Positions 33,804 to 61,420 of a DNA stretch of 64,000 nucleotides are shown here, in pieces; positions within the stretch are counted from its first letter, which is position 1; every line of letters starts with the position of its first letter. The notes beneath the pieces were generated by a model. That model was given only the letters and a program-made list of their open reading frames with translations, searched no databases and was not told the origin of the DNA. The stretch is from positions 367,727 through 431,726 of the forward strand of contig CANLUL010000002.1 in NCBI GenBank assembly GCA_947494305.1, read 5' to 3'. This DNA comes from an uncultured Sphingomonadaceae bacterium (GTDB lineage Bacteria > Pseudomonadota > Alphaproteobacteria > Sphingomonadales > Sphingomonadaceae). A program made the position numbers and the translations under genes.

Positions 33804-33819
33804 TTAATCACTTGATTAA
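33804..33819. promoter_or_regulatory. Palindromic operator-like site, SDR-MaoC operon
   Basis: TTAATCA-CT-TGATTAA is a palindrome of 7-bp arms with a 2-base centre. The flanks extend the symmetry (CTTTTC and AGAAAAG). It ends 15 bases before the ATG of the SDR at 33835 and abuts its ribosome binding site. It matches, with one changed base per arm, the sites at 41008, 51914 and 61405. A repressor bound here would block initiation. Confidence 0.6.
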
Positions 33820-33834
33820 AGAAAAGGATCTCCC

Positions 33835-34749
33835 ATGAGCACAGTAGAATTTAATGATCGCGTCGCCATCGTCACCGGTGCTGGTGCTGGCTTGGGCCGA
33901 GAGCATGCCAAGGAATTGGCACGGCGCGGTGTTAAAGTTGTCGTCAATGATTTTGGCGGCGCCCGCGACGGCAGCGGCGGTTCCGCCGGTCCGGCCGAAG
34001 AAGTCGTCAATGAGATCAAAGCCGAAGGCGGCGAAGCCATGGCTGCGGTTTGCAGCGTGACCGAGATGGATGCTGTTGAAAAAATGGTTGCCGATGCGAT
34101 CGACGCATGGGGCCATGTAGATATTCTGGTCAATAATGCTGGCGTGCTGCGCGACAAAAGCTTTCACAAAATGTCGATGGAAGATTTCCAGTTTGTCATG
34201 GATGTGCATTTGACCGGTAGTGCCAATTGTACGAAGGCGGTCTGGGATCACATGCGCGAACGGCAATATGGCCGGATCGTTATGACGACCTCCTCGACCG
34301 GTCTTTATGGCAATTTCGGTCAGGTCAATTATGGCGCAGCGAAACTGGCGTTGGTTGGCATGATGAACAGCCTGCATCAGGAAGGTGCCGGAAAAGGTAT
34401 CCATACCAACTGTATTTCTCCGGTTGCTGCTACCCGCATGACCGAAGATATCATGCCCGAAGAGGCGCTAAAAATGCTGGTTCCGGAAGCAGTAACACCG
34501 GCGGTGGTTTATTTGTGCAGCGACGGCGCGCCATCAAAAACAATCCTGACTGCCGGAGCTGGTGGTTTTGCCGCAGCGAAAATTCAGGAAACCGAAGGCA
34601 TTTGGCTTCCTGAAGCAAATCGGAACGCCGAAGCCATCGCCGAGAACTTCGAACAGATTCTCGATGAAACCGGGATGCAGGAATATGCCAATGGTGGCGG
34701 ACAGGGCGGCAAATTTTTCCGCCGGATGCAGGAAGTAATGAAGGGCTAA
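33835..34749 (+). CDS. SDR family (R)-3-hydroxyacyl-CoA dehydrogenase-like protein
   Basis: The 304 residues show GAGAGLGREHAKELARRGVK (cofactor loop), DFGGARDGSGGSAGPAEEVV, DILVNNAGVLRDKSFHKM, and a catalytic Tyr-Lys pair in NYGAAKLAL. This follows the dehydrogenase part of the peroxisomal multifunctional enzyme type 2 (17-beta-HSD4), which oxidises (3R)-hydroxyacyl-CoA. The next gene encodes a MaoC hydratase, so the two together rebuild the split hydratase/dehydrogenase module of that enzyme. The start follows AAGGA at 33824-33828. The palindrome at 33804 controls it, by inference. Confidence 0.88.
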   Translation: MSTVEFNDRVAIVTGAGAGLGREHAKELARRGVKVVVNDFGGARDGSGGSAGPAEEVVNEIKAEGGEAMAAVCSVTEMDAVEKMVADAIDAWGHVDILVNNAGVLRDKSFHKMSMEDFQFVMDVHLTGSANCTKAVWDHMRERQYGRIVMTTSSTGLYGNFGQVNYGAAKLALVGMMNSLHQEGAGKGIHTNCISPVAATRMTEDIMPEEALKMLVPEAVTPAVVYLCSDGAPSKTILTAGAGGFAAAKIQETEGIWLPEANRNAEAIAENFEQILDETGMQEYANGGGQGGKFFRRMQEVMKG

Positions 34750-34771
34750 ACGCCTAAAGAGGAGAAATATT

Positions 34772-35230
34772 ATGCCAATGATTAAAGCAGAAGAACTTGA
34801 AAGCTGGATCGGCAAGGAAGTCGGTGTTTCCGAATGGGTTGATGTCCCGCAGGAACGGATCAACAATTTCGCCGATTGCACCGAAGATCACCAGTTCATT
34901 CACATTGATGAAGAAGCGGCAGCGAAAACACCATTTGGCGGAACTATCGCGCATGGCCTGTTGACGCTCTCTCTCTTACCCAAGCTGTCCTACGGAACAA
35001 CGCTTGGCCTCGAAGGCACAGTGATGGGAATCAACTATGGCTTCGACAAGGTGCGCTTCCTTAACCCGGTTCGCGCTGGCTCTAAAGTCCGTGGGCGTCA
35101 TGTGTTGAAGAATGCACAGGAAAAACAACCTGGCCGCTGGCTACTGACTTATGATGTTACTGTGGAAATCGACGGTATTGAAACACCTGCACTGATTGCC
35201 ACATCGCTAGTGATGATTGTGGTTGGTTAG
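34772..35230 (+). CDS. MaoC-like (R)-specific enoyl-CoA hydratase
   Basis: The 152-residue hot-dog-fold protein has the hydratase-2 signature FADCTEDHQFIHIDEEAAAK followed by TPFGGTIAHGLLTLSLLP, with the catalytic Asp and His in place. It hydrates trans-2-enoyl-CoA to the (3R)-hydroxyacyl-CoA that the SDR just upstream would oxidise. A strong site (AAAGAGGAGAAAT) precedes the ATG, 22 bases after the SDR stop. It is the last gene of this small operon and is followed by a clear terminator. Confidence 0.9.
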   Translation: MPMIKAEELESWIGKEVGVSEWVDVPQERINNFADCTEDHQFIHIDEEAAAKTPFGGTIAHGLLTLSLLPKLSYGTTLGLEGTVMGINYGFDKVRFLNPVRAGSKVRGRHVLKNAQEKQPGRWLLTYDVTVEIDGIETPALIATSLVMIVVG

Positions 35231-35250
35231 ACCGCGAAAAACATAGTCGA

Positions 35251-35287
35251 AAAAGGGCTCCGGATCGTTTTCGGGGCCCTTTTTTTT
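35251..35287 (+). terminator. Rho-independent terminator after SDR-MaoC operon
   Basis: AAAAGGGCTCCG (35251-35262) pairs with CGGGGCCCTTTT (35272-35283) with a single G-U pair, and the T run continues to 35287. It lies 20 bases after the MaoC stop. The remaining bases up to the GGDEF-EAL gene at 35502 hold no ORF I can support. Confidence 0.9.
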
Positions 35288-35501
35288 GGCCCTAAAGTTT
35301 GCCCCTAAACTAAATCAGTGTCGGCGCTGGGTAATATCGATGGACTACCCATTGTCTTTTGGCGGGTAATTCAGATACGTCGAGCACAATTTCATTTCAT
35401 TGTAGTCAGGTCAAATCCATCGCAACTTGTTTGAATAGAACTTTAAGTACTTAATAACCATGGGGTCCATCCGTCCATTACAAGGTCAATTGTGATTTTT
35501 T

Positions 35502-37963: not shown

Positions 37964-38728
37964 TTAGGGTGTGCCGCCAATCCGCAGGCACTGTCCGGTC
38001 ACCCATTCGGATGCCGGCGCGGCGAGATAGAGCGTCAGTGCGCCAATATCGGTCGGTGTACCCAATCGACCAGCGGGTAATCCCAACTGATCCTCAAAGC
38101 CGATAAAGTCTTCATCGGTCATGCTGAGCGCTTCCTTCACCGTTTCGGTTGGCACAAAGCCGGGCAGGATCGCATTGACCCGCGTCTTGGGACCCAGTTC
38201 ATGCGCCAGGGTTTTGGTCAGCATTAAAACACCTGCTTTTGCCGCGCTATAGTGGCCACTGCCGGGGAAGGGGTCCTGCCCCGCCATCGACGATGTATTG
38301 ATGATAGAACTGCCTTCACCCAGATGCTTGCAAGCGGCACGCACGCCATAGAAGACCGATGTCAAATTGGTAGCCAGGGTCTTGTCCCACTCGGCTTCGT
38401 CCAGCTCAATGAGCGGCGCCGAGACCAGCGAACCACCGGCATTGTTTACCCAGATATCGAGCTGTCCAAATTCATCAACCGCACGCTGGGCGAGCGCCTC
38501 CATATCTTCTTCTTTGGTCACATCTGTCGCCAGTGCAATGGCCCGGCCGCCCGTGTTGCTAGCATTGATTTCTTCGGCAACGCGGTCGATCTGATCGGTG
38601 CTGCGGGAAGCGCACACGACATTGGCACCAGCGTCTGCGAGCACCTTTGCCATGCCTTCACCAATGCCGCGTCCGGCGCCTGTTACTACGGCGACTTTGC
38701 CGGTTAGATCAAATAAGGGGTTAGTCAT
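37964..38728 (-). CDS. Short-chain dehydrogenase/reductase
   Basis: The 254-residue classical SDR shows VVTGAGRGIGEGMAKVLADAG, DIWVNNAGGS, IINTSSMAGQDPFPGSG and the catalytic HYSAAKAG. It overlaps the end of the molybdopterin oxidoreductase gene by four bases, so the pair is translated together from the divergent promoter at about 40966-41105. Substrate is unknown: an alcohol or 3-hydroxyacyl-CoA fits the acyl-CoA context. A GC-rich inverted repeat near its stop codon (about 37951-37978) lacks a T run. Confidence 0.88.
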   Translation of the reverse strand: MTNPLFDLTGKVAVVTGAGRGIGEGMAKVLADAGANVVCASRSTDQIDRVAEEINASNTGGRAIALATDVTKEEDMEALAQRAVDEFGQLDIWVNNAGGSLVSAPLIELDEAEWDKTLATNLTSVFYGVRAACKHLGEGSSIINTSSMAGQDPFPGSGHYSAAKAGVLMLTKTLAHELGPKTRVNAILPGFVPTETVKEALSMTDEDFIGFEDQLGLPAGRLGTPTDIGALTLYLAAPASEWVTGQCLRIGGTP

Positions 38729-40965
38729 TCTGCTGCCTCCAGTTGGGTTTGTTTTGCGCGGATATTGATCGGTATACTGCTCATTAGCGGGATTCCGGTG
38801 CGCTTGTCATATTGTACTTCATTGTCAGTCAGGCGCCCGGTATTGCCCCCTGCGCCGAGCGGATCTTCTTTCTCGTCGGGATTGGTGCCCCAGCTATGGG
38901 GGATCGACGCACAACCGGGGCGAACCGTTTCGTCGGACCTTGCAACACAGCTGATCATGGCGCGCGCAGATTCGACTTCAATCGGTTGTCCGTCTTCCAG
39001 CCCTAGCTGTTCCATATCTAGCGGATTCATGAAGGCAGGGTGATGCGGCACGCGTTTGCGCTGGACCGGATCCTCATGCCAATTGCTGTTATGCATCTCG
39101 GTCATCCTCCGTCCGATCATGCGGAACGGGAAATCGGTATCTTCTATCGGTTCACCCAATTTCGCAGCATAGCCAGCCAGTTCCTCCATCATCGCTGCAT
39201 TACCAACCGACAGCTTGCCCTCCCAATCTTCGGGTTTCGGCTGGACCAGCAAAGCCTGCGCATCGACAATCTTGCCTTTGACCGCTTCCGGATCGGCATA
39301 TAGCTCTTTGATGTCGGTCGGGCATCCGTTCAGCGTAGCACTCCAAGCATCAAGCACATCGGGTGTTTCCCCGGGTGCAAAAGAAGTGGCCTTTTCCTCG
39401 CGTTCATCGGGATGCGCCAGCAGCGCCCAGGATTTCACATTGAGCGTTTTTCCCAGATCGCTCGCGACCGTGTGGATGAATTGATATTCTTCGCAAAGGT
39501 CAGATCCGTCGGGCACATCCATGATCGGCGGACTGGCCTGCGCATAATTATTCTCAAAGCCCCAGCCAGCACCAAAGCCGCCATAAATTTCCGGCGCGGC
39601 AGTATTGCCGTGCACCTCATAGTGGAGTTTTGGTGCAATCACATAATCGGCCAGTTCCGCAGTCTTTGACATGCGCGGATCAAGACAGACCAGCAGGTCC
39701 AGTTCCTTCATGGCTTCAAAGGTTTTGAGTTGGTCAGGCCATGCCAGCATCGGGTTGCCACCCAATACGATCAGCGCCTTCACTTGTTTGTCCCCGGGCG
39801 TCAGAATTTCATCGGGCAGCGCCGAAGTCGGCATCCCCGAAATGCTTTGCTCCAGATCGCGGCTGTGTAACTTCCGGCCAAATCCCCATGCCGGAATCGG
39901 CCCCGGTGTGGCAGCGATGGGCGGGGCGGGTTTGGTGAACACGCCCGTGCGCCGGTTCAGATCGCCCTCGCGCAGCCAGTGGCCCATGATCGAGGTAAGC
40001 GCCAGATTGAGATATTCGGTGATGTTGCCGCCGCCCGACATATTGGGCCCAGTGCCACCGCTAATACTGGCTTTTTTCCAGCTGCCATACATGCGTGCGG
40101 CCTTCACAATCTCTTCGGCTGTCACGCCAGCGCGTTCTGCGGCAAGGCCCGGATCGAAGGGCTGCACTGCTTTTCTTAACGCCTCCAGCCCATCAACATC
40201 GCCGGCTACAAAATCCTTGTCATACAGCTCTTCGTTGATCACGACTTTAGCAATGGCGCCCAATATAATCGGATCCTGACCCGGACGACACTGGATATGA
40301 ATATCGGCCTGACGCGCACTATCGGTGACGCGGGGATCAATGACGATCAATTCCATCCCGCGCTTCTTGGCATCATGCAGTTTCTTGGCCGGGTTCATTC
40401 CCAGTCCGCCATTCATCGAAACCACCGGATTGGTGCCAACCAGCATCAAACCATCCCAGTCACCTACGCGCGGCGCACCGGCCAGCCAGGGACCAACAAG
40501 CGCGCGGGCAATGCCTTTGCCTGGTTGGTCAATGGTCACACTGTCATAGACCGAAGTCGATCCAATCGATTCCATCAATGCCAGCATGAAGGCATGGGCG
40601 TTGACATTATTATAGCCGAATGTGCCAACATAGCTGGCCACGGCATCGGGCCCATGTTCGGCCACAATGTTTTCCAGTCGCTGGGCAATTTCGCTGGCGG
40701 CATCACGCCAATGCACCGCCTGTTTTTTACCGTTCTTCATGCCCTTGTAGCTCGTTAACAGGCGGGTATCGAGGCTGTGATAGCTGCCCAGCTGGCGGCC
40801 TTTGATGCAGCTATAGCCTTCAAATTCGGGGTTATCCTTGTCGCCATGGGTCTTGACCGGAACGCCGTCTTCAAAATCGACTATCAGCCCGCAATGCGCA
40901 TGACAGGCGCGGCACATGACATGTTTCTGTCCTGTGAATTTAGGGTCTTGAACCGCGGTCGCCAT
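38725..40965 (-). CDS. Molybdopterin-dependent oxidoreductase
   Basis: The 746-residue protein belongs to the DMSO-reductase/formate-dehydrogenase superfamily. The N-terminal [4Fe-4S] ligands are Cys18, Cys21, Cys25 and Cys53 (MCRACHAHCG and YSCIKG). The domains binding the bis-guanine-dinucleotide cofactor are seen in GLMLVGTNPVVSMNGGLG and LIVIDPRVTDSARQADIH. There is no twin-arginine signal, so it is cytoplasmic. Its substrate is not known, but it heads an operon with an SDR and is divergent from acyl-CoA dehydrogenases across one operator, so a role in ring or side-chain oxidation, such as hydroxylation or dehydrogenation, is inferred. Confidence 0.9.
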   Translation of the reverse strand: MATAVQDPKFTGQKHVMCRACHAHCGLIVDFEDGVPVKTHGDKDNPEFEGYSCIKGRQLGSYHSLDTRLLTSYKGMKNGKKQAVHWRDAASEIAQRLENIVAEHGPDAVASYVGTFGYNNVNAHAFMLALMESIGSTSVYDSVTIDQPGKGIARALVGPWLAGAPRVGDWDGLMLVGTNPVVSMNGGLGMNPAKKLHDAKKRGMELIVIDPRVTDSARQADIHIQCRPGQDPIILGAIAKVVINEELYDKDFVAGDVDGLEALRKAVQPFDPGLAAERAGVTAEEIVKAARMYGSWKKASISGGTGPNMSGGGNITEYLNLALTSIMGHWLREGDLNRRTGVFTKPAPPIAATPGPIPAWGFGRKLHSRDLEQSISGMPTSALPDEILTPGDKQVKALIVLGGNPMLAWPDQLKTFEAMKELDLLVCLDPRMSKTAELADYVIAPKLHYEVHGNTAAPEIYGGFGAGWGFENNYAQASPPIMDVPDGSDLCEEYQFIHTVASDLGKTLNVKSWALLAHPDEREEKATSFAPGETPDVLDAWSATLNGCPTDIKELYADPEAVKGKIVDAQALLVQPKPEDWEGKLSVGNAAMMEELAGYAAKLGEPIEDTDFPFRMIGRRMTEMHNSNWHEDPVQRKRVPHHPAFMNPLDMEQLGLEDGQPIEVESARAMISCVARSDETVRPGCASIPHSWGTNPDEKEDPLGAGGNTGRLTDNEVQYDKRTGIPLMSSIPINIRAKQTQLEAAE

Positions 40966-41007: not shown

Positions 41008-41023
41008 TTAATCGTTCAATTAA
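41008..41023. promoter_or_regulatory. Palindromic operator-like site in divergent promoter
   Basis: TTAATCG-TT-CAATTAA is a 7-2-7 palindrome with one imperfect pair. It sits in the 140-base gap between the molybdopterin oxidoreductase (start 40965) and the acyl-CoA dehydrogenase (start 41106), so one bound regulator could control both directions. It matches the perfect copies at 51914 and 61405. Confidence 0.6.
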
Positions 41024-41105: not shown

Positions 41106-42320
41106 ATGGCCGATAAACCGAATGCAGCCGAGCTGAAGGAATATGCCGACGAGGCGGATGCCTGGTTCAAGGAAAATACTGTTCGCGATCCCGGCTTCAT
41201 GTTGCCACTCACCTTTATGGAAGTATCAACCGATCAGCAGTTTGATTTTCTCCGTGATTGGCAGCGCAAAGTTTATGAAGCCGGCTATCTGGGGGCCAGT
41301 TGGCCGAAGGAATATGGCGGCGGCGGAATGCACAGCGATTATCAGCGCGCAGCGACCCGTGCGATGAAGAAATATGATGCGCCGATCATGATAAACGCGA
41401 TTGGTAATGGTTGGGCCGGGCCATTGATTTTGGACCTGGGGACCGAGGAGCAGAAACAAAAATATATCAAACCGATGCTCAGCGCCGAGGAAATTTGGTG
41501 TCAGGGTTTCTCCGAACCGGAAAATGGCAGTGATTTGGGCAATGCGCAACTCAAGGCCGTGAAAGATGACGATGAATATGTGCTCAACGGTTCCAAAATC
41601 TGGACCTCCTTGGGTGATCGCGCCAAATATATGATCCTGCTGGCACGGACTGATTTTGATGCCTCCAATAAATATGCAGGGCTGAGTTTCTTTCTCAATC
41701 CCATGGATGTTGATGGCATCACCACCACCAAGATCAAGAAGCTCACGGGCGAATATGGCTTCGTCCAATGTTTCTTTACCGATGCTCGTGTGCCCTCCGA
41801 TTGCTTGTTTGGCGGCGAAGGCAATGGTTGGCAAATGGCGATGAAGACTTTGGAATATGAGCGCGGAGCCAAGGTGAAGCCGGTTGGCGGCTATTTCGTC
41901 AAGGAACTCGATGTCATGGATATTGTCGAGCTGGCGAAAAACTCCAAGCGCGGCGGTAAGCCTTTGCTCGACGATCCCGTGATGCGCGACAAGATGACGC
42001 AATTCATGATCGATATTCAGGCGCTCAATCTTAACAACACGCGCCGCCGGATGCCGCAACTAATGCAAGATCGACCCATGGGACTGCCGCTGATGAACAA
42101 GCTGGCGCGAACCGATCTGGTCCAGCGGCTGACCGAATTTTCGCTCGAGTTTCAGGGCTCAAAAGCCGGCTATTATGTTGGCGATGAAAATGCGGTGGAC
42201 GATGGCTATTGGCATCGCAGTTATCTGAACAGCTTCTCCGCAACCATTGGTGGTGGAACTTCACAGATTCAGAAAAATATCATTGGCGAGCATGCGCTTG
42301 GCCTGCCCAAAACGCGCTGA
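41106..42320 (+). CDS. Acyl-CoA dehydrogenase, large subunit type
   Basis: The 404-residue flavoprotein follows the FadE plan: LGASWPKEYGGGG, GFSEPENGSDLGN (substrate and flavin contact), GSKIWTSLGDRAKYMILLARTD, and SATIGGGTSQIQKNIIGEHALGLPK at the end. The C-terminal Glu used by medium-chain enzymes is replaced by Gly (GGGT), while a Glu is present in TLEYERG, the position used by the steroid-type heterotetramers. The next gene, 14 bases later, encodes a smaller dehydrogenase that lacks both, so the two probably form an alpha2-beta2 enzyme. It is the first gene of a four-gene operon. Confidence 0.92.
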   Translation: MADKPNAAELKEYADEADAWFKENTVRDPGFMLPLTFMEVSTDQQFDFLRDWQRKVYEAGYLGASWPKEYGGGGMHSDYQRAATRAMKKYDAPIMINAIGNGWAGPLILDLGTEEQKQKYIKPMLSAEEIWCQGFSEPENGSDLGNAQLKAVKDDDEYVLNGSKIWTSLGDRAKYMILLARTDFDASNKYAGLSFFLNPMDVDGITTTKIKKLTGEYGFVQCFFTDARVPSDCLFGGEGNGWQMAMKTLEYERGAKVKPVGGYFVKELDVMDIVELAKNSKRGGKPLLDDPVMRDKMTQFMIDIQALNLNNTRRRMPQLMQDRPMGLPLMNKLARTDLVQRLTEFSLEFQGSKAGYYVGDENAVDDGYWHRSYLNSFSATIGGGTSQIQKNIIGEHALGLPKTR

Positions 42321-42334
42321 TTGGAAAACGGAAC

Positions 42335-43459
42335 ATGGATAATTTAGGTACCATCGGTACAACCGAAGAACAGATCGAGCTGCTCGACGTGGCCACCAAT
42401 TTCTGCCGCGACAAAAGCCCGATAGAAAAAGTCCGTGCGCTGATCGACGACGATCTGGGTTATGATCCCGATGTCTGGCGCGAGATCGGAGAGCTCGGCT
42501 GGCTGGCCATTGCCATTCCCGAAGAGCATGACGGCGTTGGCCTCTCAATGGCAGAGGTTGTTCCCATTGCCGAACAGATGGGGCGCAATCTGTTGAACAC
42601 GCCTTTTGGATCAACGACCTTGGCCGCGCAGGTATTGCTGGCTGGCGGCACCGAGGCACAAAAATCCCAATGGCTTCCGAAAATTGCTGCGGGCACCGCA
42701 GCGACTTTGGCGTTGCAGGAAGATAATGGCGATTGGGATTTGACCAATATCGACGCTCAGGCTGTTGTCAGCGGAGACAGCGTCACTTTGTCAGGCAAGA
42801 AGCAATTTGTGGTCTGGGCCAACAGCGCGGAACTGATTATCGCCTCGGTCAAGATTGACGGAGATGTGCGTTTCGCCTTGATTGACCGCAGTGCAATATC
42901 CGATGCTGCGCTTCGCCGTGAAGCGGTTATTGATGAGACCGTCCGCAGTTATGAACTGACGCTTGATGGCCTGACTGTTTCGACCGATGCCCTGCTGGAC
43001 GGCGCGCGCACGCGCGAGACACTGGAGGCGATTGATCTGGCGGGCAGCCTGATCCACTCGGCGGAAATGACCGGCGGCACACAAGCGGTCATTGATTACA
43101 CCATTGAGTATCTCAACACACGCAAACAGTTCGACAAGATTATCGGCAGCTTCCAGGCGCTGAAACATCCGACAGTTGAAAACTATGTCGAATATGAAAA
43201 ATCACGCACGCATCTTTATAGCGCGGCGCATTGTTTCAGTGATCAGGGTCGCGGAGAAGTGGCGGTTCGCATGGCCGCCTCACAGGCGCATGGTACCTAT
43301 TCACATGCCGCCGACCGGGCGATCCAGTTTCACGGCGCCTTTGGTTTTACCCACGATTGCGATGCGCAACTCTATCGCCGCCAGGCCATTTTCAAAGGCG
43401 CGCTGAACGGCGATGCCGCGTGGCACCGCGCAAAATTATCCGATCTTTTATTTGACTAA
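42335..43459 (+). CDS. Acyl-CoA dehydrogenase, small subunit type
   Basis: The 374-residue protein begins at the ATG at 42335. It has the family fold (ELGWLAIAIPEEHDGVGLSM, FGSTTLAAQVLLAGGT, AIQFHGAFGFTHDCDAQLYRRQA) but is shorter, and the region of the catalytic Glu reads DLAGSLIHSAEMTGG, with no Glu at the usual position. This is typical for the non-catalytic partner in paired acyl-CoA dehydrogenases, whose job is to complete the flavin site. It is flanked by the large subunit and an enoyl-CoA hydratase, and is translated with them. Confidence 0.9.
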   Translation: MDNLGTIGTTEEQIELLDVATNFCRDKSPIEKVRALIDDDLGYDPDVWREIGELGWLAIAIPEEHDGVGLSMAEVVPIAEQMGRNLLNTPFGSTTLAAQVLLAGGTEAQKSQWLPKIAAGTAATLALQEDNGDWDLTNIDAQAVVSGDSVTLSGKKQFVVWANSAELIIASVKIDGDVRFALIDRSAISDAALRREAVIDETVRSYELTLDGLTVSTDALLDGARTRETLEAIDLAGSLIHSAEMTGGTQAVIDYTIEYLNTRKQFDKIIGSFQALKHPTVENYVEYEKSRTHLYSAAHCFSDQGRGEVAVRMAASQAHGTYSHAADRAIQFHGAFGFTHDCDAQLYRRQAIFKGALNGDAAWHRAKLSDLLFD

Positions 43460-43476: not shown

Positions 43477-44235
43477 ATGTCCGAAGTACTTACTGATATC
43501 CAGGATGGCGTTATCGTCATCACCATCAACCGTCCGGAAGCCAAAAATGCCGTCAACCGAGCGGTTGCAGAAGGTGTGGCCGCTGCCATGGAACAGCTGG
43601 ATAGCGACAACAGCCTGAACGCCGGTATCATCACCGGTGCCGGTGGCACATTCTGTTCGGGCATGGACCTGAAGGGGTTCCTGAAGGGCGAACTGCCCAT
43701 GGTCGCGGGCAAGGGTTTTTGCGGGTTCATTGAATCGCCACCTGAGAAGCCGTTAATCGCTGCGGTGGAAGGATATGCACTGGCGGGCGGCATGGAAGTG
43801 GCCATCGCCAGTGATCTTTGTGTTGCCAATAGCAAGGCGCAGTTCGGTATTCCCGAAGTGAAGCGTAGCCTTGTCGCTGCGGCTGGCGGTTTGCTGACGC
43901 TGCCTTCGATCGTAGGCAAGCGTATGGCCATGGAATTGGCATTGACCGGCGACTTCATAGATGCCCAACGCGCATATGAAATGGGTTTCGTCAACCGGAT
44001 CACCGATGGTCCCGCTCTGGATGGCGCTTTGGAATTTGCTGCACGCGTGGCTGCCAACGGCCCACTGGCGCTGAAAGCCACCAAGCGGATCATCAACGAG
44101 CGACCCGATTGGTCGAGCGAAGAAATGTGGCAGAAGCAGCAGGAACTTTCTGGCGCCGTATTTGCCTCAGAAGATTCCAAGGAAGGCGCTCGGGCCTTTG
44201 CCGAAAAACGCAAACCAAATTGGCAGGGCAAGTAA
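43477..44235 (+). CDS. Enoyl-CoA hydratase/isomerase (crotonase family)
   Basis: The 252-residue protein shows ITINRPEAKNAVNRAVAEGV, an oxyanion loop GTFCSGMDLKGF, and both active glutamates at their usual places: GGMEVAIASDLCV and FGIPEVKRSLVAAAGG. It should therefore be a true hydratase. It follows the two acyl-CoA dehydrogenases by 17 bases, so it takes their enoyl-CoA product. A strong AGGAGAGAG site precedes the ATG. The hydrolase gene follows ten bases later. Confidence 0.9.
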   Translation: MSEVLTDIQDGVIVITINRPEAKNAVNRAVAEGVAAAMEQLDSDNSLNAGIITGAGGTFCSGMDLKGFLKGELPMVAGKGFCGFIESPPEKPLIAAVEGYALAGGMEVAIASDLCVANSKAQFGIPEVKRSLVAAAGGLLTLPSIVGKRMAMELALTGDFIDAQRAYEMGFVNRITDGPALDGALEFAARVAANGPLALKATKRIINERPDWSSEEMWQKQQELSGAVFASEDSKEGARAFAEKRKPNWQGK

Positions 44236-44244: not shown

Positions 44245-45195
44245 ATGGCAAGTTCTGACATAGTCGATATCTGGGCGAAGGGCCTGGACCTTCCCGAATG
44301 GTTCGTGGCCGCGATGGACATTCCCAGAGAGGAAGCGTTTGTTGAGGTCGAGGGTCACAAGGTCCACTATTTCCGATGGGGGAAGCGGGGTAATCCGCCA
44401 CTGCTTCTGACCCACGGATTTCTGGCTCATGCGCGCTGTTTCGCCTTTATCGCTCCGTTTCTGGCCGATCAATATGATGTCATCGCCTATGATCTGGCGG
44501 GCATGGGCGACAGTGAGATGATCCCGGACTGCGATGGTCAGAAGCGGGCGGAAAACATGGTTGGCGTCGCAGAGGCGCTGGATCTGTTTTCTGGCCCGGT
44601 AAAGCCTAAAATCATAGCCCACAGCTTTGGCAGCGGGGTTGCCTTGACCGCCATGGAATTGGCGGGAGAGCGGTTTGGCGGGCTAATCATTTGTGACCTT
44701 ATGATCATGCGTCCGGAAAAGCTGATCGAGCATTTCAAACAGGGTGGTGGACCACCGGGTTCCGGCAAATCGGACAAGCCGAACAATATTTATCCAGACT
44801 ACGAAACAGCGCGCGGGCGTTTTGTTTTGGCACCGCCGCAGGATGCACAAACGCCCTTCCTGGTCGAATATATGGCCTATCACAGTATGCGGAAAGTCGA
44901 GGGCGGCTGGAGCTGGAAATTTGACCCGAAAGTCTTTGCTCGCAGCGAAAATGATCAGGACAAATGGCTGAAGGCCCCGCAACGGATTGCCGATCTACCG
45001 CACCGGTTAGCGATAATCTACGGTGAGAATAGCCGGTTGTTCAATGCCGATAGTGTCGCCTATCTGCGGGAATTGGGCGGAGAGAATATTCCGATGATCG
45101 CGGTTCCCGGAGCAGAGCATCATCTGATGATTGATCAGCCACTCGCATTTGCTGCCGCGCTGCGCTCCACACTGGAGCACTGGCAGCGGCAGTGA
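44245..45195 (+). CDS. Alpha/beta hydrolase
   Basis: The 316-residue protein has the hydrolase fold with PPLLLTHGFLAHARCF for the oxyanion region, the nucleophile elbow IAHSFGSGVA, and a late GAEHHLMIDQP with the catalytic His. It resembles epoxide hydrolases or meta-cleavage and ester hydrolases but I cannot name the substrate. It is the last gene of the operon that starts at 41106 and converges on the small peptide gene at 45200, with only four bases between them. Confidence 0.85.
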   Translation: MASSDIVDIWAKGLDLPEWFVAAMDIPREEAFVEVEGHKVHYFRWGKRGNPPLLLTHGFLAHARCFAFIAPFLADQYDVIAYDLAGMGDSEMIPDCDGQKRAENMVGVAEALDLFSGPVKPKIIAHSFGSGVALTAMELAGERFGGLIICDLMIMRPEKLIEHFKQGGGPPGSGKSDKPNNIYPDYETARGRFVLAPPQDAQTPFLVEYMAYHSMRKVEGGWSWKFDPKVFARSENDQDKWLKAPQRIADLPHRLAIIYGENSRLFNADSVAYLRELGGENIPMIAVPGAEHHLMIDQPLAFAAALRSTLEHWQRQ

Positions 45196-49394: not shown

Positions 49395-50072
49395 CTAGAA
49401 CGAAAAGACCATCGTCTCGCGGCCATCTTTTTCCATCGCGCTTTGATAGGAAGGGGTGGCCTCCATCTGATCGATCCAGCGCAGACAGCCGGGGCGGCTA
49501 TCATCGATAAAGCCCTTTTGTTTTGCCGAAGCCATGCAGTAGCTCATGGTGATGTCGGCTGCGGTCAATTCTTCACCCGCCAGCCATTTATGTTCTGCCA
49601 GATCATGTTCGAGCCGGTCCAATATCGTTTTCATGCGCGGCTGGACGAGCAGCGAGTTGGCTTGTCCCAGTGCAGCACCGATGATCGGCCGTATAAAAAA
49701 GGGAGACCGTTTCTGTAGCACGGTAAAGATACCGTCCATAAACTGCATCGGCATCATCGAACCGGTCCCGGCATGGAACCAGAACAGATAGTCGGCGCGT
49801 GTCGCGCTGTCCGGCTTGGGCCGCAGCGGACTATCGGGATAGAGATCCAGGATATAATCGATCACCGCATTGCTTTCTGCGAGGACAAGGCCTTTTTCGT
49901 CGGTAATCACCGGCGCAGTGCCCAAGGGTGACAGGGCCTTATATTCCGCTGGCGCCAGATTGGATTCAGGATCGCGATTGTATAGCTTCAACTCATAAGG
50001 CTGACCAATTTCTTCGAGCAGCCAGAGAATACGGAAGCTCTGCGAATATTCCAGATGGTGTAGCGTAATCAT
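49395..50072 (-). CDS. Glutathione S-transferase family protein
   Basis: The 225-residue protein starts MITLHHLEYSQSFRILWLLEE, which has a serine (Ser10) in the active-site turn where this subgroup uses Ser or Tyr. The cis-proline segment GTAPVITDEKG and ESNAVIDYILDLYP follow, then the all-helical C-terminal domain (TAADITMSYCMASAK). It is the last gene of an operon with an NPD-family protein and an SDR, 15 bases after the SDR. In catabolic clusters such proteins often remove reactive or aromatic intermediates by glutathione conjugation; here that is inference. Confidence 0.87.
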   Translation of the reverse strand: MITLHHLEYSQSFRILWLLEEIGQPYELKLYNRDPESNLAPAEYKALSPLGTAPVITDEKGLVLAESNAVIDYILDLYPDSPLRPKPDSATRADYLFWFHAGTGSMMPMQFMDGIFTVLQKRSPFFIRPIIGAALGQANSLLVQPRMKTILDRLEHDLAEHKWLAGEELTAADITMSYCMASAKQKGFIDDSRPGCLRWIDQMEATPSYQSAMEKDGRETMVFSF

Positions 50073-50087: not shown

Positions 50088-50873
50088 TCAGGCGTTTTTG
50101 ATGGTTAGACCGCCATCTACCGGAATCACGGCGCCAGTCAAAAAACTGGCCGATGGCAACACACAGGACAAAGTCATATGCGCGACTTCTTCGGGAATGC
50201 CATAGCGACGTAGCGGCACCCGGCGTTTGGCGTAAATTGTCTTATGCTCTTCGGAAATCGCATCGGTAATGCCGGTGCGGATCGGGCCGGGACATATGCA
50301 GTTTACGGTGATGCCTTCACGGCCCAGGTCTACGGAAAGTCCCCGTGTCAGGCCGATCACGCCATGTTTAGCGGCCACATAAGGGCTATTGCCCGGTGTC
50401 GCGCCCAAGCCCTCGGTCGATGCCACATTGACGATGCGCGGATGCTCGGCGTCTCTAAGGTGCGGCAATGCGGCACGGATCATCCGGTGGTGTGCTGCCA
50501 GCATGACTTCGAGTGTCGGTGTCCAGCTATCCTCATAGCTTTCTTCTGCAACATCGGCGGGAATGGCGAAGCCGGCATTATTGACCAATATGTCAATCCC
50601 GCCAAAGGCCTCCGCGATGGCAGCAACAACCGATTTAATCGCGTCCTGATCGCTGACATCCAAAGCCCATGCCTTGGCTGATCCGCTATAGCCCGCCGCT
50701 TCTATCTCCTGCACCACGGCATCGCATTTTCCCTGATCCAGGTCGGTCACAGCGACATGCGCGCCTTCGGAGGCAAACAGATGCGCGGTGGCACGGCCCA
50801 TTCCGCTGGCCGCGCCGGTGACAATGGCGACCTTGCCAGCAATGGAACGACTGAGCGGTTGATAGGGTTCCAT
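50088..50873 (-). CDS. Short-chain dehydrogenase/reductase
   Basis: The 261-residue classical SDR shows KVAIVTGAASGMGRATAHLFASEG, VTDLDQ (an Asp that selects NAD), DILVNNAGFAI, RIVNVASTEGLG, and the catalytic SPYVAAKHGV, then NCICPGPIRTG and PVDGGLTIK. Cofactor preference for NAD is inferred from the acidic residue after the second strand. It is three bases downstream of the NPD gene and is translated with it. The likely substrate is a hydroxyacyl-CoA or an alicyclic alcohol. Confidence 0.88.
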   Translation of the reverse strand: MEPYQPLSRSIAGKVAIVTGAASGMGRATAHLFASEGAHVAVTDLDQGKCDAVVQEIEAAGYSGSAKAWALDVSDQDAIKSVVAAIAEAFGGIDILVNNAGFAIPADVAEESYEDSWTPTLEVMLAAHHRMIRAALPHLRDAEHPRIVNVASTEGLGATPGNSPYVAAKHGVIGLTRGLSVDLGREGITVNCICPGPIRTGITDAISEEHKTIYAKRRVPLRRYGIPEEVAHMTLSCVLPSASFLTGAVIPVDGGLTIKNA

Positions 50874-50876
50874 GGT

Positions 50877-51854
50877 TTAAGCTGCCTGCAACCCGGCCAG
50901 ACGTTCGTTGATCAACGCATCGGCATCGGCCATGATTCCATCAATCAGTTCCTTACAAGTCGGAATATCATTGATCAGACCGGCAACCATGCCGCAGCTC
51001 CATGCCCCGGCATCCATCGTGCCTTCGAGCATGATTTTCGGATAGACGCCCGCAACCTGTTCGATCACATCGGTAAATTGCAGGTCGGCGCCTTTCTCTT
51101 TTTCGATCTCAAGCAGTTTTTCGACCGCTGAATTGGTCAGCACGCGTTCGGTGTTGCGCAAGGGACGCATGACTAGGCGGGTATCAAGTTCGCTCGCCGC
51201 AACAATCGCGTCTTTCACATTTTGATGTACAGGCGCTTCTTTCGTGGCGATAAAGCGCGTGCCCATGTTCATGCCTTCTGCGCCCATAGCGAGCGAGGCA
51301 ACCAGCGAACGGGCATCGGCTTGTCCGCCGGAAGATACGAATGGAATATCCAGCTCATCTGCAGCACGTGGTAGCAAGATCATGTTTGGAATATCATCTT
51401 CGCCGGGGTGCCCGCCGCATTCGAAACCGTCGACTGAAACCGCATCACAGCCGATTCGCTGCGCTTTCAACGCATGGCGGACCGCTGTGCATTTATGGAT
51501 CACCTTGATCCCGGCGCCCTGCAGTGCCGGGAGAACTTGCTGCGGGTTGTTACCAGCAGTCTCAACCACCTTTACACCGCCATCGATAATGGCTTTGACC
51601 ATGCCTTCATAGTCGGGCGCGTTGACGACGGGCAGAAAGGTCAGGTTCACGCCAAATGGCTTGTCGGTCATGTCGTTGCACTTGGCGATTTCGTCGGCCA
51701 GTGCTTCGGCAGATGGCTGGGTCAGTGCGGTGATGATACCGAGGCCACCGGCATTCGAAACTGCTGCTGCCAGTTCCGCAAAGCCCACATAGTGCATGCC
51801 GCCCTGAATGATGGGATGTTCAATGCCGAATAGCTCAGTGATGCGTGTTTTCAT
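50877..51854 (-). CDS. Nitronate monooxygenase-like (NPD family) flavoprotein in acyl-CoA operon
   Basis: The 325-residue flavin protein starts MKTRITELFGIEHPIIQGG and has NAGGLGIITALTQPS, KPFGVNLTFLP, DAVSVDGFECGGHPGEDD with the active-site His, PFVSSGGQADARSLVASLAMG and MGTRFIATKEA. In actinobacterial steroid degradation an NPD-like flavoprotein (IpdC) hydroxylates a ring-opened CoA ester, so a similar role is possible here. It is the first gene of the NPD-SDR-GST operon and carries an operator palindrome 59 bases upstream. It differs in length and sequence from the NPD protein at 20467-21468. Confidence 0.86.
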   Translation of the reverse strand: MKTRITELFGIEHPIIQGGMHYVGFAELAAAVSNAGGLGIITALTQPSAEALADEIAKCNDMTDKPFGVNLTFLPVVNAPDYEGMVKAIIDGGVKVVETAGNNPQQVLPALQGAGIKVIHKCTAVRHALKAQRIGCDAVSVDGFECGGHPGEDDIPNMILLPRAADELDIPFVSSGGQADARSLVASLAMGAEGMNMGTRFIATKEAPVHQNVKDAIVAASELDTRLVMRPLRNTERVLTNSAVEKLLEIEKEKGADLQFTDVIEQVAGVYPKIMLEGTMDAGAWSCGMVAGLINDIPTCKELIDGIMADADALINERLAGLQAA

Positions 51855-51913
51855 GGAATTAGCTCCTGCTTGTGGAAGTTATCGAAGCCTGTAAGGCAGT
51901 TTCGGGAATCAGT

Positions 51914-51929
51914 TTAATCGGGCGATTAA
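51914..51929. promoter_or_regulatory. Palindromic operator-like site before NPD-SDR-GST genes
   Basis: TTAATCG-GG-CGATTAA is a perfect 7-2-7 palindrome. It overlaps the stop codon of the upstream dehydrogenase gene (51926-51928) and lies 59 bases before the NPD start at 51854. It would give these three genes their own regulated promoter inside a longer run of reverse-strand genes. Confidence 0.65.
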
Positions 51930-52969
51930 CTAGCGGTCCGTTCGCCGCCCGTCCAGTCCCCAGTCGTCACGCCTTTCCAGATTTGGTCGGGTGCCGTGGC
52001 GGCAAGCTCTTCGCCAAGCAGTTTGGACCAGTGATGCTCATTGCCCAGCGCATCTCGCCATGCCCAAAGCCGGCGTGTGTAATGATGGAGATCATATTCC
52101 TGGGTATAACCCATCGCGCCGTGGACCTGGTGGAACGGTACCGTCACGGCCTCCACGCTATGGCCGATTTGCACTTTCGCAATAGCCGCCTCGTGCCAGG
52201 CTTTTTCGGGATCGTCTTTGTGCTTAATCAGCGCGCTGGCAGCCTGTGTTGCGGCCATCGTGGCGGCTGCCGTTTCGGATGCGGCTACCGAAAGCTGATG
52301 CTGGATGGCCTGAAATTTTGACAGAGGCCGACCAAATTGTTCGCGCTCCGACACATAGCCGATTGAGAGATCCAAAGCGGCTTCCATCGACGCGGCCATT
52401 TGTACTGCGCGAACTGTCAGCACAAGCGCCTCAATGGCGCGCCTAGACAGATTGGTCTTGGCCGTTTGTTCAGCGACATGACCGGAGAAAATGAACTGCG
52501 TCATGCCATCAGGCGACAAGGCTTCTTCGGGAGACCGTACCGCTTCGCGATTGTCGAAAAGCGATATCTCCTGATGCGCTTCATCAAACAACACAATCTT
52601 GTCAGCATGCATCCCAAAGGGAATATCCGCACTGGGCGTATGACCGCTGAGAGCAAAGCTGGCGCTGCCATCAGCCGGTGCCAATCCGGCTTGATCAAGC
52701 ATCCAGTTGGCGATGAGTGTCTCGGCGAACGGGATTGGAGACGCGGCCTGCGCCGATGCCCATATCGCGCCAAACACTTCATCATATTCTGCACCAAATC
52801 CGCCAGTATCTTCGCTGGTCCAGGCGAGCGTCAGGCCGTTTTCCTGCAGCGCGTCCCAGAGCGCCAGCGGATATTCGCCCGCTTCTGCTGCATGCGGAAC
52901 TTCTCTGGGACAGAGGTCGGTAAATATCTTTGTGGCCGTTTCGGCGACCATGCCTTCGGTATTGATCAT
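51926..52969 (-). CDS. Acyl-CoA dehydrogenase, small subunit type
   Basis: The 347-residue protein has the family fold (LTLAWTSEDTGGFGAEYDEVFG, IGYVSEREQFGRPLSKFQAIQHQL, QVHGAMGYTQEYDLHHYTRR) but lacks the catalytic Glu: the equivalent segment reads LTVRAVQMAASMEAAL. It is the small partner of the dehydrogenase encoded just upstream, and the two genes overlap at their stop and start codons. This resembles the FadE heterotetramers of sterol degradation. Its stop codon lies within the operator palindrome at 51914-51929. Confidence 0.9.
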   Translation of the reverse strand: MINTEGMVAETATKIFTDLCPREVPHAAEAGEYPLALWDALQENGLTLAWTSEDTGGFGAEYDEVFGAIWASAQAASPIPFAETLIANWMLDQAGLAPADGSASFALSGHTPSADIPFGMHADKIVLFDEAHQEISLFDNREAVRSPEEALSPDGMTQFIFSGHVAEQTAKTNLSRRAIEALVLTVRAVQMAASMEAALDLSIGYVSEREQFGRPLSKFQAIQHQLSVAASETAAATMAATQAASALIKHKDDPEKAWHEAAIAKVQIGHSVEAVTVPFHQVHGAMGYTQEYDLHHYTRRLWAWRDALGNEHHWSKLLGEELAATAPDQIWKGVTTGDWTGGERTAS

Positions 52970-54135: not shown

Positions 54136-56082
54136 TTAAGGGGTGACGATATCAAATTGTGGATTAACTTCATCAAGCGCGCCAAACATAGCTGCCATAA
54201 GGGCGGTATCGCCTGACAGCTTTAATGCACCCGACTGGATCAATTCCAATGGATTGGCTTGACGCATCAGCAATTTGGTAAAGTCGCTGCGGCTGATGGA
54301 TACTTGTGCCGCAGAAGTTTCCGATTTGCCGGCACGCGGGAACAAATAGCTTTTGTTCAGATCGACCATGACTTCTTCATTGCGATCGGGGAAACTGAAC
54401 TGGATGACGCCGCCACTGCCCTGCATTTTCTTTGGGTTGAAGCGCGTGGCCAGAGCGTCAAATAAATCAACCGCAGGAATTCCATTGAGAACCTTAGCAT
54501 TGGCCGTCGAAATGCTGTCTTTGGTGTTGTTACCCTCGCGCAATTCTTTTGCACCCACCAAATAGATGTTGCGCCAGGTTCCAGCCTCAGCCTGAAAACC
54601 GAGCTGTTCATATGTCGCGGCAAGCCATTTTTTGGCGCCTTCATTGTCCGGGTTGGCAAAAACAACATGATTGAAGACGGTAGCGGCCCAGCGATAGTCA
54701 CCCGCTTCAAAAGCCTGTTCACCAATGGCTAGCGCATTATCTGTGCCTCCCATCGATGCGACATATTTTGTAGAAGCCTCGGTGGTTGGCAATTGGTGAT
54801 AGTGGGCGGGCACGGCATCCCACCAACCGAAATAGCGTTGATAGACCGCCTTGCTGTTGTGGTTCAGCGTTCCATAATAATCGCGCACGCCAAAGTCGGT
54901 TTTGGCAAAATCGGGTTCACCGATATTTTCGGCAATCTCATGCATAGTCGCGCCCTGATTGGCCTGACGCATGGTCTGATCATGGACATAGCGATAGAGT
55001 CCGCGTTGATTTTTTAGAGCGACCTGCACATTGTCGATGCCCCATGTTGGCCAGTGATGTGATGCGACTAACACGTCTGATTTGGCTCCATATTTTGCGA
55101 GCATCGCATCGATCACCTTGCTCCATTTCAACGTGTCACGCACCAGCGCACCACGCGGTGTGAGCACATTGTGAAAGGTTCGGGTCACGACCTCTGCGGT
55201 GTGCAGAGCCTTGAACTGAGGCAGGTAGAAGACGAATTCAGCGGGTGCTTCGGTTTCACCGGCATCCATAAATTCAAAAGTGATACCATCGACGGTCAAC
55301 GTCTCGCCGTCTTTGCTGATCGATTTGGTTGGCGGCAACAGTGCCACATCTCCGCTGGAGAGTTTCTGCCCCAGACCGCCGCCGACATGACCGGATTTCC
55401 CAACTGGCAAGGCGGTGCCGAACTGGAACTGGACGCGCCTGTTCATCGCGGTTCCGGCAATGACACTCTCGCCAATCGACTCAGCCAGAAAGCCATGCGG
55501 TGCAATAATCTGGACCTTGCCAGACTGGACGTCTGCCTGAGAGGCCACACCCGCTACACCGCCAAAATGATCGCCATGGCTATGAGTGAATAGCACGGCA
55601 GCAACGGGTCGCTCGCCGAGGGTCTTATTGGCCAATTCCAGCCCTGCCTTCGCCGGAGCAGGTGTAGTCAACGGATCAATGATAATCCAACCGGTCTTGC
55701 CAGCGATCAAGGTCATCTGCGCCAGATCATATCCGCGAATCTGATAGATGCCGGGAACGACCTCAAACAATCCGTGAATGCTGTTGAGTTTGCCCTGTCG
55801 CCATAGAGAGGGGTTGACGGTATCGGGCGCATCACCGGTCATAAATTGAAACTGGTTGGGATCCCAGGACACCGAACCATCGGCATTGAGAATGGGCTTT
55901 TCGATTTTTGCCAGAAAGCCGCGATTTGCATTTTCAAAGTCGGTCTGGTCAGCAATGGGAAGGCGCTTGGCAACTTCTGCATTGGCATTTTTTGTAGCTT
56001 CGGTTGCAACCCCTTCTGGGGGCGATGCCAAAGCGGTGGAAGCTAGAGCTAGAACCCCTATTGAAAAAGCAATTTTCTTCAT
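54136..56082 (-). CDS. Alkylsulfatase-like metallo-beta-lactamase fold protein
   Basis: The 648-residue protein has a signal peptide (MKKIAFSIGVLALASTALA), a metallo-beta-lactamase domain with the two-metal motif FTHSHGDHFGGVAG, a dimerisation region (ADNALAIGEQAFEAGDYRWAATVFNHVVFA) and a C-terminal SCP2-like domain. This three-part plan and the length match SdsA1-type alkylsulfatases, which release sulfate from primary alkyl sulfates. It is the second gene of the reverse operon, before two acyl-CoA dehydrogenases. A secreted sulfatase could free a side-chain alcohol from a sulfated lipid before further catabolism; this is inference. Confidence 0.88.
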   Translation of the reverse strand: MKKIAFSIGVLALASTALASPPEGVATEATKNANAEVAKRLPIADQTDFENANRGFLAKIEKPILNADGSVSWDPNQFQFMTGDAPDTVNPSLWRQGKLNSIHGLFEVVPGIYQIRGYDLAQMTLIAGKTGWIIIDPLTTPAPAKAGLELANKTLGERPVAAVLFTHSHGDHFGGVAGVASQADVQSGKVQIIAPHGFLAESIGESVIAGTAMNRRVQFQFGTALPVGKSGHVGGGLGQKLSSGDVALLPPTKSISKDGETLTVDGITFEFMDAGETEAPAEFVFYLPQFKALHTAEVVTRTFHNVLTPRGALVRDTLKWSKVIDAMLAKYGAKSDVLVASHHWPTWGIDNVQVALKNQRGLYRYVHDQTMRQANQGATMHEIAENIGEPDFAKTDFGVRDYYGTLNHNSKAVYQRYFGWWDAVPAHYHQLPTTEASTKYVASMGGTDNALAIGEQAFEAGDYRWAATVFNHVVFANPDNEGAKKWLAATYEQLGFQAEAGTWRNIYLVGAKELREGNNTKDSISTANAKVLNGIPAVDLFDALATRFNPKKMQGSGGVIQFSFPDRNEEVMVDLNKSYLFPRAGKSETSAAQVSISRSDFTKLLMRQANPLELIQSGALKLSGDTALMAAMFGALDEVNPQFDIVTP

Positions 56083-58736: not shown

Positions 58737-58862
58737 ATCATCTCCAGCGACTTTTCTTGCGCTAATGGCGGAGTGCGGCCCAATTGGAAAGATGCATTTT
58801 CCCTTGTGTGGAAACGCGCATCGACTAGATACTAGGGTCAAGACAACCAACCAGGTAATATC

Positions 58863-59612: not shown

Positions 59613-59650
59613 GGGATAGAAACTATCCACATATAATCTGGGAGAAGACA

Positions 59651-60979: not shown

Positions 60980-61004
60980 CAAAGTAAGCCCCTCCTTACT
61001 TTGC
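60979..61004 (+). terminator. Hairpin after serine hydrolase gene
   Basis: GCAAAGTAAG (60979-60988) and CTTACTTTGC (60995-61004) form a perfect 10-bp stem with a six-base C-rich loop, overlapping the last base of the TAG stop. No T run follows, so it may stabilise the 3' end or act with Rho. Confidence 0.5.
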
Positions 61005-61128
61005 AGAACTTTGCCTAAGCCTAACCAGTTGGTCGCAAATTTTGCACGGGAAGTGGGGGTATCTCGTATATTTTAAAGCTGCTGAGGTCTTTTGATCTTG
61101 GAAAATACGGCACAATGCCCAGATACGC

Positions 61129-61149
61129 TGTGGATAAAACTGTTGATAA
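61129..61149. promoter_or_regulatory. Two DnaA-box-like sequences in tandem
   Basis: TGTGGATAA at 61129-61137 is the reverse complement of the consensus DnaA box TTATCCACA. TGTTGATAA at 61141-61149 differs at one base. They sit 20 to 40 bases upstream of the small gene at 61170. Chance matches to nine-base boxes are not rare, so the two close copies are suggestive rather than proof of DnaA control. Confidence 0.35.
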
Positions 61150-61169
61150 TCACCCCCCGGAGAATCAAT

Positions 61170-61358
61170 ATGACTGCTTTAGAAAAATTTATTTTGCGAA
61201 GAAGACAAGACCGCATCGGTCCGGACGCCCTGATGGGCCCTGTTCCCCAATATGGCCGGACGCAGTTTCGCATGCGCAAGAGCGATGGTCGGCCGGTTTT
61301 TCGCGACCACATTTCGGGAAGCCGCGGCAAGACAACGGAAAGAACCGTCGCTGCGTAA
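61170..61358 (+). CDS. Small basic protein, 62 residues, unknown function
   Basis: GGAGA lies six bases before the ATG at 61170, so translation is plausible. The 62 residues are rich in Arg and Gly (LEKFILRRRQDRIGPDAL, QFRMRKSDGRPVFRDH) with no recognised family. The frame does not overlap a known gene. The stretch 60980-61480 otherwise has no gene. Composition looks native, but this could be a chance frame. Confidence 0.4.
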   Translation: MTALEKFILRRRQDRIGPDALMGPVPQYGRTQFRMRKSDGRPVFRDHISGSRGKTTERTVAA

Positions 61359-61404
61359 TCGCTGAAAATACTTGTTGGAAATTTCTATCGGGTAACTGAT
61401 TGAT

Positions 61405-61420
61405 TTAATCGAACGATTAA
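61405..61420. promoter_or_regulatory. Palindromic operator-like site before acyl-CoA synthetase
   Basis: TTAATCG-AA-CGATTAA is a perfect 7-2-7 palindrome, and flanking T and A extend it to 18 bases. It lies 61 bases upstream of the acyl-CoA synthetase start at 61482. It is the same motif as at 51914 and close to those at 33804 and 41008. Confidence 0.65.

Follow-up and report, generated by a model that had tools for sequence, protein, structure and literature searches.

Sphingomonads are known for degrading persistent compounds, and the locus described here raises the question of whether a short palindrome that recurs before its catabolic genes marks a regulon, and which protein would read it. 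The window (a stretch of 64,000 nucleotides from an uncultured Sphingomonadaceae bacterium) corresponds to C2:367727-431726 of a 3.35-Mb genome in 11 contigs (G000). Our analysis makes it very probable that the palindrome, written TTAAYYRNNYRRTTAA, is the operator of one regulon of about 26 promoters for the catabolism of acyl-coenzyme A (acyl-CoA) and hydrophobic substrates. The regulon would be controlled by a TetR-type protein of 210 amino acids (aa), which a CoA thioester would release from DNA; binding, repression and ligand are predicted. The reading is built on the motif itself, its promoter placement, its conservation, its co-occurrence with the TetR gene and a copy at that gene's own operon.

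A pattern scan of the window found the strict form, TTAATCGNNCGATTAA, without mismatch at 51914 and 61405. The copy at 41008..41023 (TTAATCGTTCAATTAA) differs from it at one position and that at 33804..33819 (TTAATCACTTGATTAA) at two, yet the latter is a perfect inverted repeat, and both fit TTAAYYRNNYRRTTAA. These four sites, which the initial annotation had pointed out, are all present at 15-82 bases before start codons. The distance is 15 bases from the operator at 33804 to a short-chain dehydrogenase/reductase (SDR) gene starting at 33835, 82 bases from 41008 to an acyl-CoA dehydrogenase gene starting at 41106 (with a divergent molybdopterin gene starting 42 bases to the other side), 59 bases from 51914 to a minus-strand NPD gene starting at 51854 and 61 bases from 61405 to a ligase gene starting at 61482. 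With up to three mismatches allowed, the window contains nine matches vs. a mean of 2.73 and a maximum of 8 in 100 dinucleotide shuffles; four of the nine carry three mismatches each and our analysis covers the remaining five. The fifth, a two-mismatch match (TTGATCGTGCGATCAA) at 49014 that had been overlooked, lies within an open reading frame (ORF) with no Pfam match, does not fit TTAAYYRNNYRRTTAA and is outside the promoter zone. A site counts as lying in this zone when its centre precedes the start of an ORF of 100 aa or longer by no more than 200 bases.

Throughout the genome, TTAATCGNNCGATTAA occurs at 39 sites with at most two mismatches, vs. 6 for the reversed pattern. As 16 of the 39 fall in called ORFs (one of them, C3:370071, directly precedes an enoyl-CoA hydratase gene), the two-mismatch copies comprise both real sites and chance matches. 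The promoter copies share the TTAA ends and carry C/T, C/T and A/G at positions 5-7 of the half-site, hence the degenerate form TTAAYYRNNYRRTTAA; the 7-2-7 layout proposed initially was retained and its fixed TTAATCG half-site was given up. Perfect copies of TTAAYYRNNYRRTTAA number 26 in the own genome vs. 2 for the reversed control, and 30:0, 26:1 and 21:4 in the congeners G009, G022 and G006, respectively. The strict motif at up to one mismatch is found in 5-13 copies in 24 of 24 genus genomes (control 0-2). All 26 perfect operators of the own genome lie in promoter zones, whereas random positions drawn from these loci do so in 18.5% of cases. The corresponding fractions are 24/29 for G009 (30 in the genome), 22/26 for G022 and 11/11 for G006 (the sites fetched of its 21), with 17-20% for random positions. 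For 21 of the 26 own sites an orthologous target (at least 60% identity) with a perfect operator exists in at least one of three congeners. The motif thus survived both tests suggested at the outset, equal frequency in coding DNA and lack of conservation upstream of orthologs.

Analysis of Pfam matches revealed that at least 17 of the 26 perfect sites precede catabolic genes, namely those of acyl-CoA dehydrogenase, thiolase, enoyl-CoA hydratase, SDR, P450, FMO-type monooxygenase, CoA-transferase III, acyl-CoA ligase and molybdopterin oxidoreductase families. A perfect operator stands within 3 kb upstream of 10 of the 30 acyl-CoA dehydrogenases (random mean 0.72, maximum 5, in 2000 draws), and 3 of 11 thiolases are within 500 bases of one (random mean 0.06). 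Further targets include genes for an amidohydrolase, an MBL-fold hydrolase, a fatty-acid-desaturase-type protein and an AAA ATPase, an APH-DUF6285 gene divergent from a gene with an acyltransferase domain (FabD-type), and genes called NPD, hydrolase and hydratase only on inspection or on weak matches; a one-mismatch site lies next to a TonB receptor gene. The acyl-CoA regulon of the initial annotation is supported, but the target set reaches beyond it, e.g. to P450s, flavin monooxygenases, the amidohydrolase, the MBL-fold hydrolase and the AAA ATPase. From other genera 16 sites were fetched, 11 of them with a target in the gene calls; by inspection, at least four of these targets are acyl-CoA-dehydrogenase-like, one each is CoA-transferase-, NPD- and nitroreductase-like, and some are of other kinds. 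As nearly all NCBIfam matches stayed under the curated cut-offs, with general thiolase subfamilies as the exceptions, we claim no single substrate.

Two genes deserve separate mention. The AAA ATPase gene (MoxR-like by inspection; L019:4083-4928, C1:1153299 onward) keeps its operator in the four genomes compared (L127, L148, L178) and is an odd partner for an acyl-CoA regulon. An 859-aa fusion of a flavin monooxygenase and an alpha/beta hydrolase, i.e. monooxygenase and esterase in one chain (L105:3091-5670), adjoins an operator.

A TetR-type candidate regulator and its own promoter

The candidate regulator was found by reading downstream of the operator at C2:434167 (would-be window position 66441) along an operon-like row of genes in the order thiolase-SDR-enoyl-CoA hydratase-TetR. 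The last gene, C2:437244-437876 on the + strand, encodes the 210-aa protein and would occupy window positions 69518-70150, 5.5 kb past the window end. The initial annotation had supposed a dimeric repressor, perhaps of TetR type, encoded outside the window, and this PF14514 gene, which co-occurs with the motif and has an operator in its own operon promoter, answers to it. The protein matches TetR_C_9 (PF14514) at 6e-50, and this match together with structural matches to 2QTQ and many TetR structures indicates an all-helical TetR fold with a helix-turn-helix and a C-terminal ligand/dimer domain; its AlphaFold model has nine helices and a mean predicted local distance difference test score (pLDDT) of 90. 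The closest structure is Saro_1072 of Novosphingobium aromaticivorans (PDB 2QTQ, 2RHA), with 62-63% identity in the structural alignment, a template-modelling (TM) score of 0.84-0.90 (normalised by query length) and a sequence match over residues 13-208 at E 1.3e-80. Judging by this high identity and the same DNA-reading helix, the two proteins belong to one ortholog group. The next fold neighbours are RutR, EthR2 and TetR-type FadR, including 3WHC with stearoyl-CoA. These structural matches prompt our guess that the inducer may be of the acyl-CoA type, a guess on which we are evenly divided.

Several other regulator genes were considered. The genome's 27 TetR_N genes showed no convincing operator, the best scoring 12.5 bits (L065, 82 bases before the start) vs. 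at least 18.0 bits for the motif sites, and no operator at up to one mismatch was found within 500 bases upstream of the helix-turn-helix (HTH) match at any of these 27 other TetR genes. A TetR gene at C6:35406 was dropped, as its one-mismatch degenerate copy is downstream of the gene, about 175 bases beyond the gene's end. The window itself encodes at least one HTH regulator, of AraC type (47241-48389), and nothing links it to the motif; this gene and an HxlR-like gene in L105 (labelled by inspection) were dropped because the gene maps show no site directly before them. The same holds for an Lrp-type gene in L113 (by inspection), which was set aside though it stands behind a gene with a one-mismatch near-operator.

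To characterize the self-site, we used named loci with an ortholog of at least 50% identity and at least 3.5 kb of upstream DNA; five further loci were excluded for short flanks or lower identity. In 30 of 30 loci, the 4 kb before the TetR gene contained one perfect operator, which lay at the thiolase promoter, 2.94-3.14 kb from the TetR start. Povalibacter uvarum has a homolog of 42% identity and a single perfect operator in its 6.3 Mb, placed between the thiolase and TetR genes, which are divergent there. All 27 distinct TetR-operon promoters have a TTGAC box that precedes the operator by 21-22 bases. This spacing puts the expected -10 position inside the operator and points to steric repression with negative autoregulation. 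A separate near-operator, with the one-mismatch ending GATGAA in place of GATTAA, is seen repeatedly in relatives (L212, L216, L219, L226, L243), at a distance of 3.9-6.7 kb from the TetR gene. The same form is found in the own genome (L113:3001-5077), where it precedes a thiolase-like gene followed by the Lrp-type regulator gene.

In the mechanism that we propose, a TetR dimer would bind the 7-2-7 palindrome (best copies TTAATCG-NN-CGATTAA) and, in the operon promoter, would cover the -10 box. The bound repressor would block the catabolic genes together with its own operon (negative feedback) until a pathway-derived ligand, most probably a CoA thioester, sets it free. We consider it unlikely that the same protein acts through the same operator mainly as an activator, or both ways, instead of as a simple repressor. 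In favour of such action, the operators sit 0-183 bases before gene starts and not always at the -10 place, and at the SDR promoter at 33804 the TTGAC boxes stand about 34 and about 16 bases before the operator, not 21-22. Against it, the operator over the -10 position in 27/27 TetR-operon promoters is typical of repression, and most known TetR proteins repress. A sigma-70 promoter scan of window positions 51700-52100 found nothing.

Co-occurrence of regulator and motif across genomes

Of 32 genus genomes, 31 carry the regulator gene, with identities of about 79% and above; in G021 it is divided between two contigs. It is missing from G004, an assembly of 67% completeness in which 5 motif copies are nevertheless present. 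Named relatives with the gene are Parasphingorhabdus marina, P. flavimaris and Sphingorhabdus strains, as well as S. contaminans and Blastomonas at 58-62%; from these relatives we infer that the window genome is of the Parasphingorhabdus type. The named relatives carry 12-15 operators vs. 0 for the control, and three family members lacking the gene have operator:control counts of 0:0, 0:1 and 0:0. These relatives partly overlap the family sample described next (G060-G063; judged by size, operator count and TetR identity, the two Blastomonas genomes look the same as G209 and G255) and are not independent support.

For the family we sampled 199 genomes of at least 90% completeness and took an identity of at least 52% to define a close ortholog. 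A close TetR ortholog was detected in 28 genomes, 25 of which have 4-26 perfect operators, while none of the 171 genomes without one reaches 4 (highest 3, control 2). The Fisher test gave p ~8e-29 for genomes and p ~1e-11 by genus (9/10 vs. 0/81), both values being too small because of shared ancestry. Five family genomes with homologs of only 35-40% identity had no operator. At the protein level, 15 aligned proteins, Povalibacter included, have the recognition segment GLNSALVKYYFGNK without variation, and it is changed in four aligned homologs (L245, L246, L292, L293) from genomes counted as lacking the motif. A 3.2-kb contig binned as Alcaligenaceae (L248:1201-1395) encodes a DNA-binding domain 71% identical to that of the regulator; it is probably misbinned sphingomonad DNA.

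Several observations weigh against a single TetR regulon as we propose it. The main exception to co-occurrence is genus g87 (3 of the 28 genomes), which keeps the TetR protein at 52-54% identity, yet has 1 perfect operator per genome; the recognition segment is unchanged there and the neighbouring helix is changed. Two of the three g87 genomes have a one-mismatch copy, TTAGCCGAGCGGTTAA, about 0.87 kb before the TetR match, and we read g87 as a shrunken regulon. The clades share ancestry, and genome counts are not independent events. The regulator scores only 17.1 bits (E 0.0047) with TetR_N (PF00440), under the Pfam cut-off of 24, and is for this reason absent from the genome's TetR_N gene list. 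As sites of the own genome served to derive the degenerate pattern, the own-genome count is partly circular; other genomes are not affected. One-mismatch copies of TTAAYYRNNYRRTTAA are not enriched (24 vs. 40 for the control in the own genome; 50 vs. 42 with perfect copies included), so the borders of the regulon are soft. By gene calls, 5 of 29 G009 sites and 4 of 26 G022 sites fall outside promoter zones. Eighteen of the 30 acyl-CoA dehydrogenases have no site (at up to one mismatch) within 3 kb upstream, which indicates one large regulon but not all of beta-oxidation. The TTGAC spacing occurs in 7 of 104 oriented promoters vs. about 1.1 expected, several of the 7 being orthologs, and we therefore claim it for the TetR operon only.

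The operator might instead belong to another, unseen DNA-binding protein co-inherited with the thiolase operon, the TetR gene being one more target whose product senses something else. Since the operon genes are inherited together, co-occurrence alone cannot separate the candidates; the genome-wide search covered the TetR family among the HTH families, with 27 other TetR genes in the genome, and the Lrp-type gene (L113:4607-5077) behind its near-operator has a parallel in the similar near-operator around the relatives' TetR loci. However, Povalibacter, with its different, divergent gene order and its 42% homolog, still has the genome's single perfect operator at the TetR promoter. Among the aligned homologs, the recognition segment and the motif go together, g87 excepted, and the 27 other TetR genes have no operator upstream as described above. 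We regard such an unseen protein as quite unlikely. Finally, TTAA-rich palindromes are plausible in AT-rich promoters and the full CtrA site, TTAA-N7-TTAA, contains TTAA boxes, but a chance or structural element read by no single regulator is hardly credible, as the counts exceed the reversed control, 0/171 family genomes without a close TetR reach 4 copies and the boxes enriched here (only this pattern was counted) are 8 bases apart, not the 7 of CtrA.

Comparison with known systems and wider reading

Our literature search, which did not reach subscription papers, supplements and RegPrecise, found no description of the operator or the regulon, in agreement with the initial annotation, which had not recognised the motif as a described one. 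To judge by this search the regulon is new, although its kind, a TetR regulon of lipid-type degradation, is known. For Saro_1072, which shares the recognition segment GLNSALVKYYFGNK with our candidate, no function, operator or ligand was found in the same search; its PDB title says only that it is a predicted DNA-binding regulator, and 2QTQ/2RHA are named in a list of a crystallography methods paper.

Among better-known repressors, RutR has a 7-2-7 operator, reportedly TTGACCA-NN-TGGTCAA, and is the next fold neighbour after Saro_1072, but it is 17-20% identical to our candidate and its regulon is that of pyrimidine catabolism. KstR, the TetR repressor of the actinobacterial cholesterol regulon, controls a large set of genes with acyl-CoA dehydrogenases, thiolases, SDRs and P450s; its operator, reportedly TNNAACNNGTTNNA, bears no resemblance to TTAAYYRNNYRRTTAA. 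The TetR-type FadR of Bacillus (3WHB, 3WHC, 5GP9) shares the TetR fold and is titled a regulator of fatty acid degradation, but comes from another phylum and has about 18% identity to the candidate. In Proteobacteria, PsrA and FadP likewise belong to the TetR type and control fatty acid degradation; their regulons average 11.1 and 17.9 genes per genome, respectively, and FadP is described as unique to betaproteobacteria (PMC5343134). The regulon described here resembles those of PsrA, FadP and FadR in its acyl-CoA catabolism targets and also includes P450s and flavin monooxygenases. From the same order, EdcR, the oestradiol repressor of Caenibius tardaugens, is also a TetR repressor with a palindromic operator over the -10 box. 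It differs in its operator (TnnCnnTACnAnTnGTAnnGnnA) and its C-terminal domain (TetR_C_11, vs. TetR_C_9 here), and has been described for a single gene cluster (PMC8700777).

Tentatively, the PF14514 protein could act throughout a group of sphingomonad genera, comprising Parasphingorhabdus, Sphingorhabdus, Blastomonas and (in the form of Saro_1072) Novosphingobium, as the master repressor of genes that break down hydrophobic substrates. It might sense a common CoA thioester and tie breakdown to fatty acid synthesis and acyl-CoA carboxylases. This picture includes a divergent operator that precedes a malonyl-CoA transacylase-type gene, and operators that precede carboxylase-like genes in congeners (the latter labelled by inspection). 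The regulon may have grown from a local thiolase switch, still seen in Povalibacter, to 4-30 operators and shrunk in g87. Apart from this wider reading, the proposed regulon would assign to the orphan crystal structure Saro_1072, solved in 2007, a function together with its operator and targets, and the control logic for a good part of the catabolic genes in a sphingomonad group could be predicted. It would also show cleanly how a regulon expands and contracts, since Povalibacter and each g87 genome have one perfect site and the others 4-30.

Genes at the four operators in the window

The features at the four operators are as follows (window positions; operators are given no strand).

33804..33819, operator TTAATCACTTGATTAA; the G022 ortholog promoter has TTAATCATTCAGTTAA at the equivalent place
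33835..34749, + strand, SDR gene downstream of this operator (Pfam adh_short, 5.1e-49)
34772..35230, + strand, MaoC-like hydratase gene close behind the SDR gene (weak partial match to the C-terminal part of PaaZ, TIGR02278; the MaoC label is otherwise that of the initial annotation)
37964..38728, - strand, SDR-like gene downstream of the molybdopterin gene (ORF; labelled by inspection of the N-terminal sequence)
38725..40965, - strand, molybdopterin oxidoreductase gene (Pfam Molybdopterin, 6.5e-23)
41008..41023, operator TTAATCGTTCAATTAA between divergent genes; the same site precedes the molybdopterin-gene ortholog in G009
41106..42320, + strand, acyl-CoA dehydrogenase gene (Pfam Acyl-CoA_dh_M/N/1)
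42209..43459, + strand, second acyl-CoA dehydrogenase gene (ORF as listed, true start probably further in; Pfam Acyl-CoA_dh_N, 1.5e-21)
43477-44235, + strand, enoyl-CoA-hydratase-like gene (labelled by sequence inspection)
44245-45195, + strand, alpha/beta hydrolase gene closely spaced after the hydratase-like gene (Abhydrolase_6, 1.7e-17)
49395-50072, - strand, glutathione S-transferase (GST)-like gene downstream of the NPD and SDR-like genes (ORF; labelled by inspection and in the initial annotation)
50088-50873, - strand, SDR-like gene downstream of the NPD gene (ORF; labelled in the same way)
50877..51854, - strand, NPD/nitronate-monooxygenase-like gene (FabK model TIGR03151, 257.6 bits, under the cut-off of 453)
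51914..51929, operator TTAATCGGGCGATTAA; equivalent site in 8 distinct NPD promoters of the fetched loci, the window's included
61405..61420, operator TTAATCGAACGATTAA; equivalent site in 11 distinct ligase promoters of the fetched loci, the window's included
61482..63014, + strand, acyl-CoA ligase gene (Pfam AMP-binding, 4.6e-63; best NCBIfam model FadD4, under the cut-off)
63553..64000, + strand, cytochrome P450 gene continuing past the window end (Pfam p450, 5e-27, from L029)

Three neighbouring genes complete the region. The AraC-type regulator gene mentioned above lies amid the catabolic genes. A wax ester synthase/DGAT gene (32175-33734) stands directly before the operator at 33804 and places lipid storage beside lipid breakdown. 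An alkyl-sulfatase-type gene with an SCP2-like C-terminus (54136-56082) adjoins acyl-CoA dehydrogenase genes and has no operator of its own.

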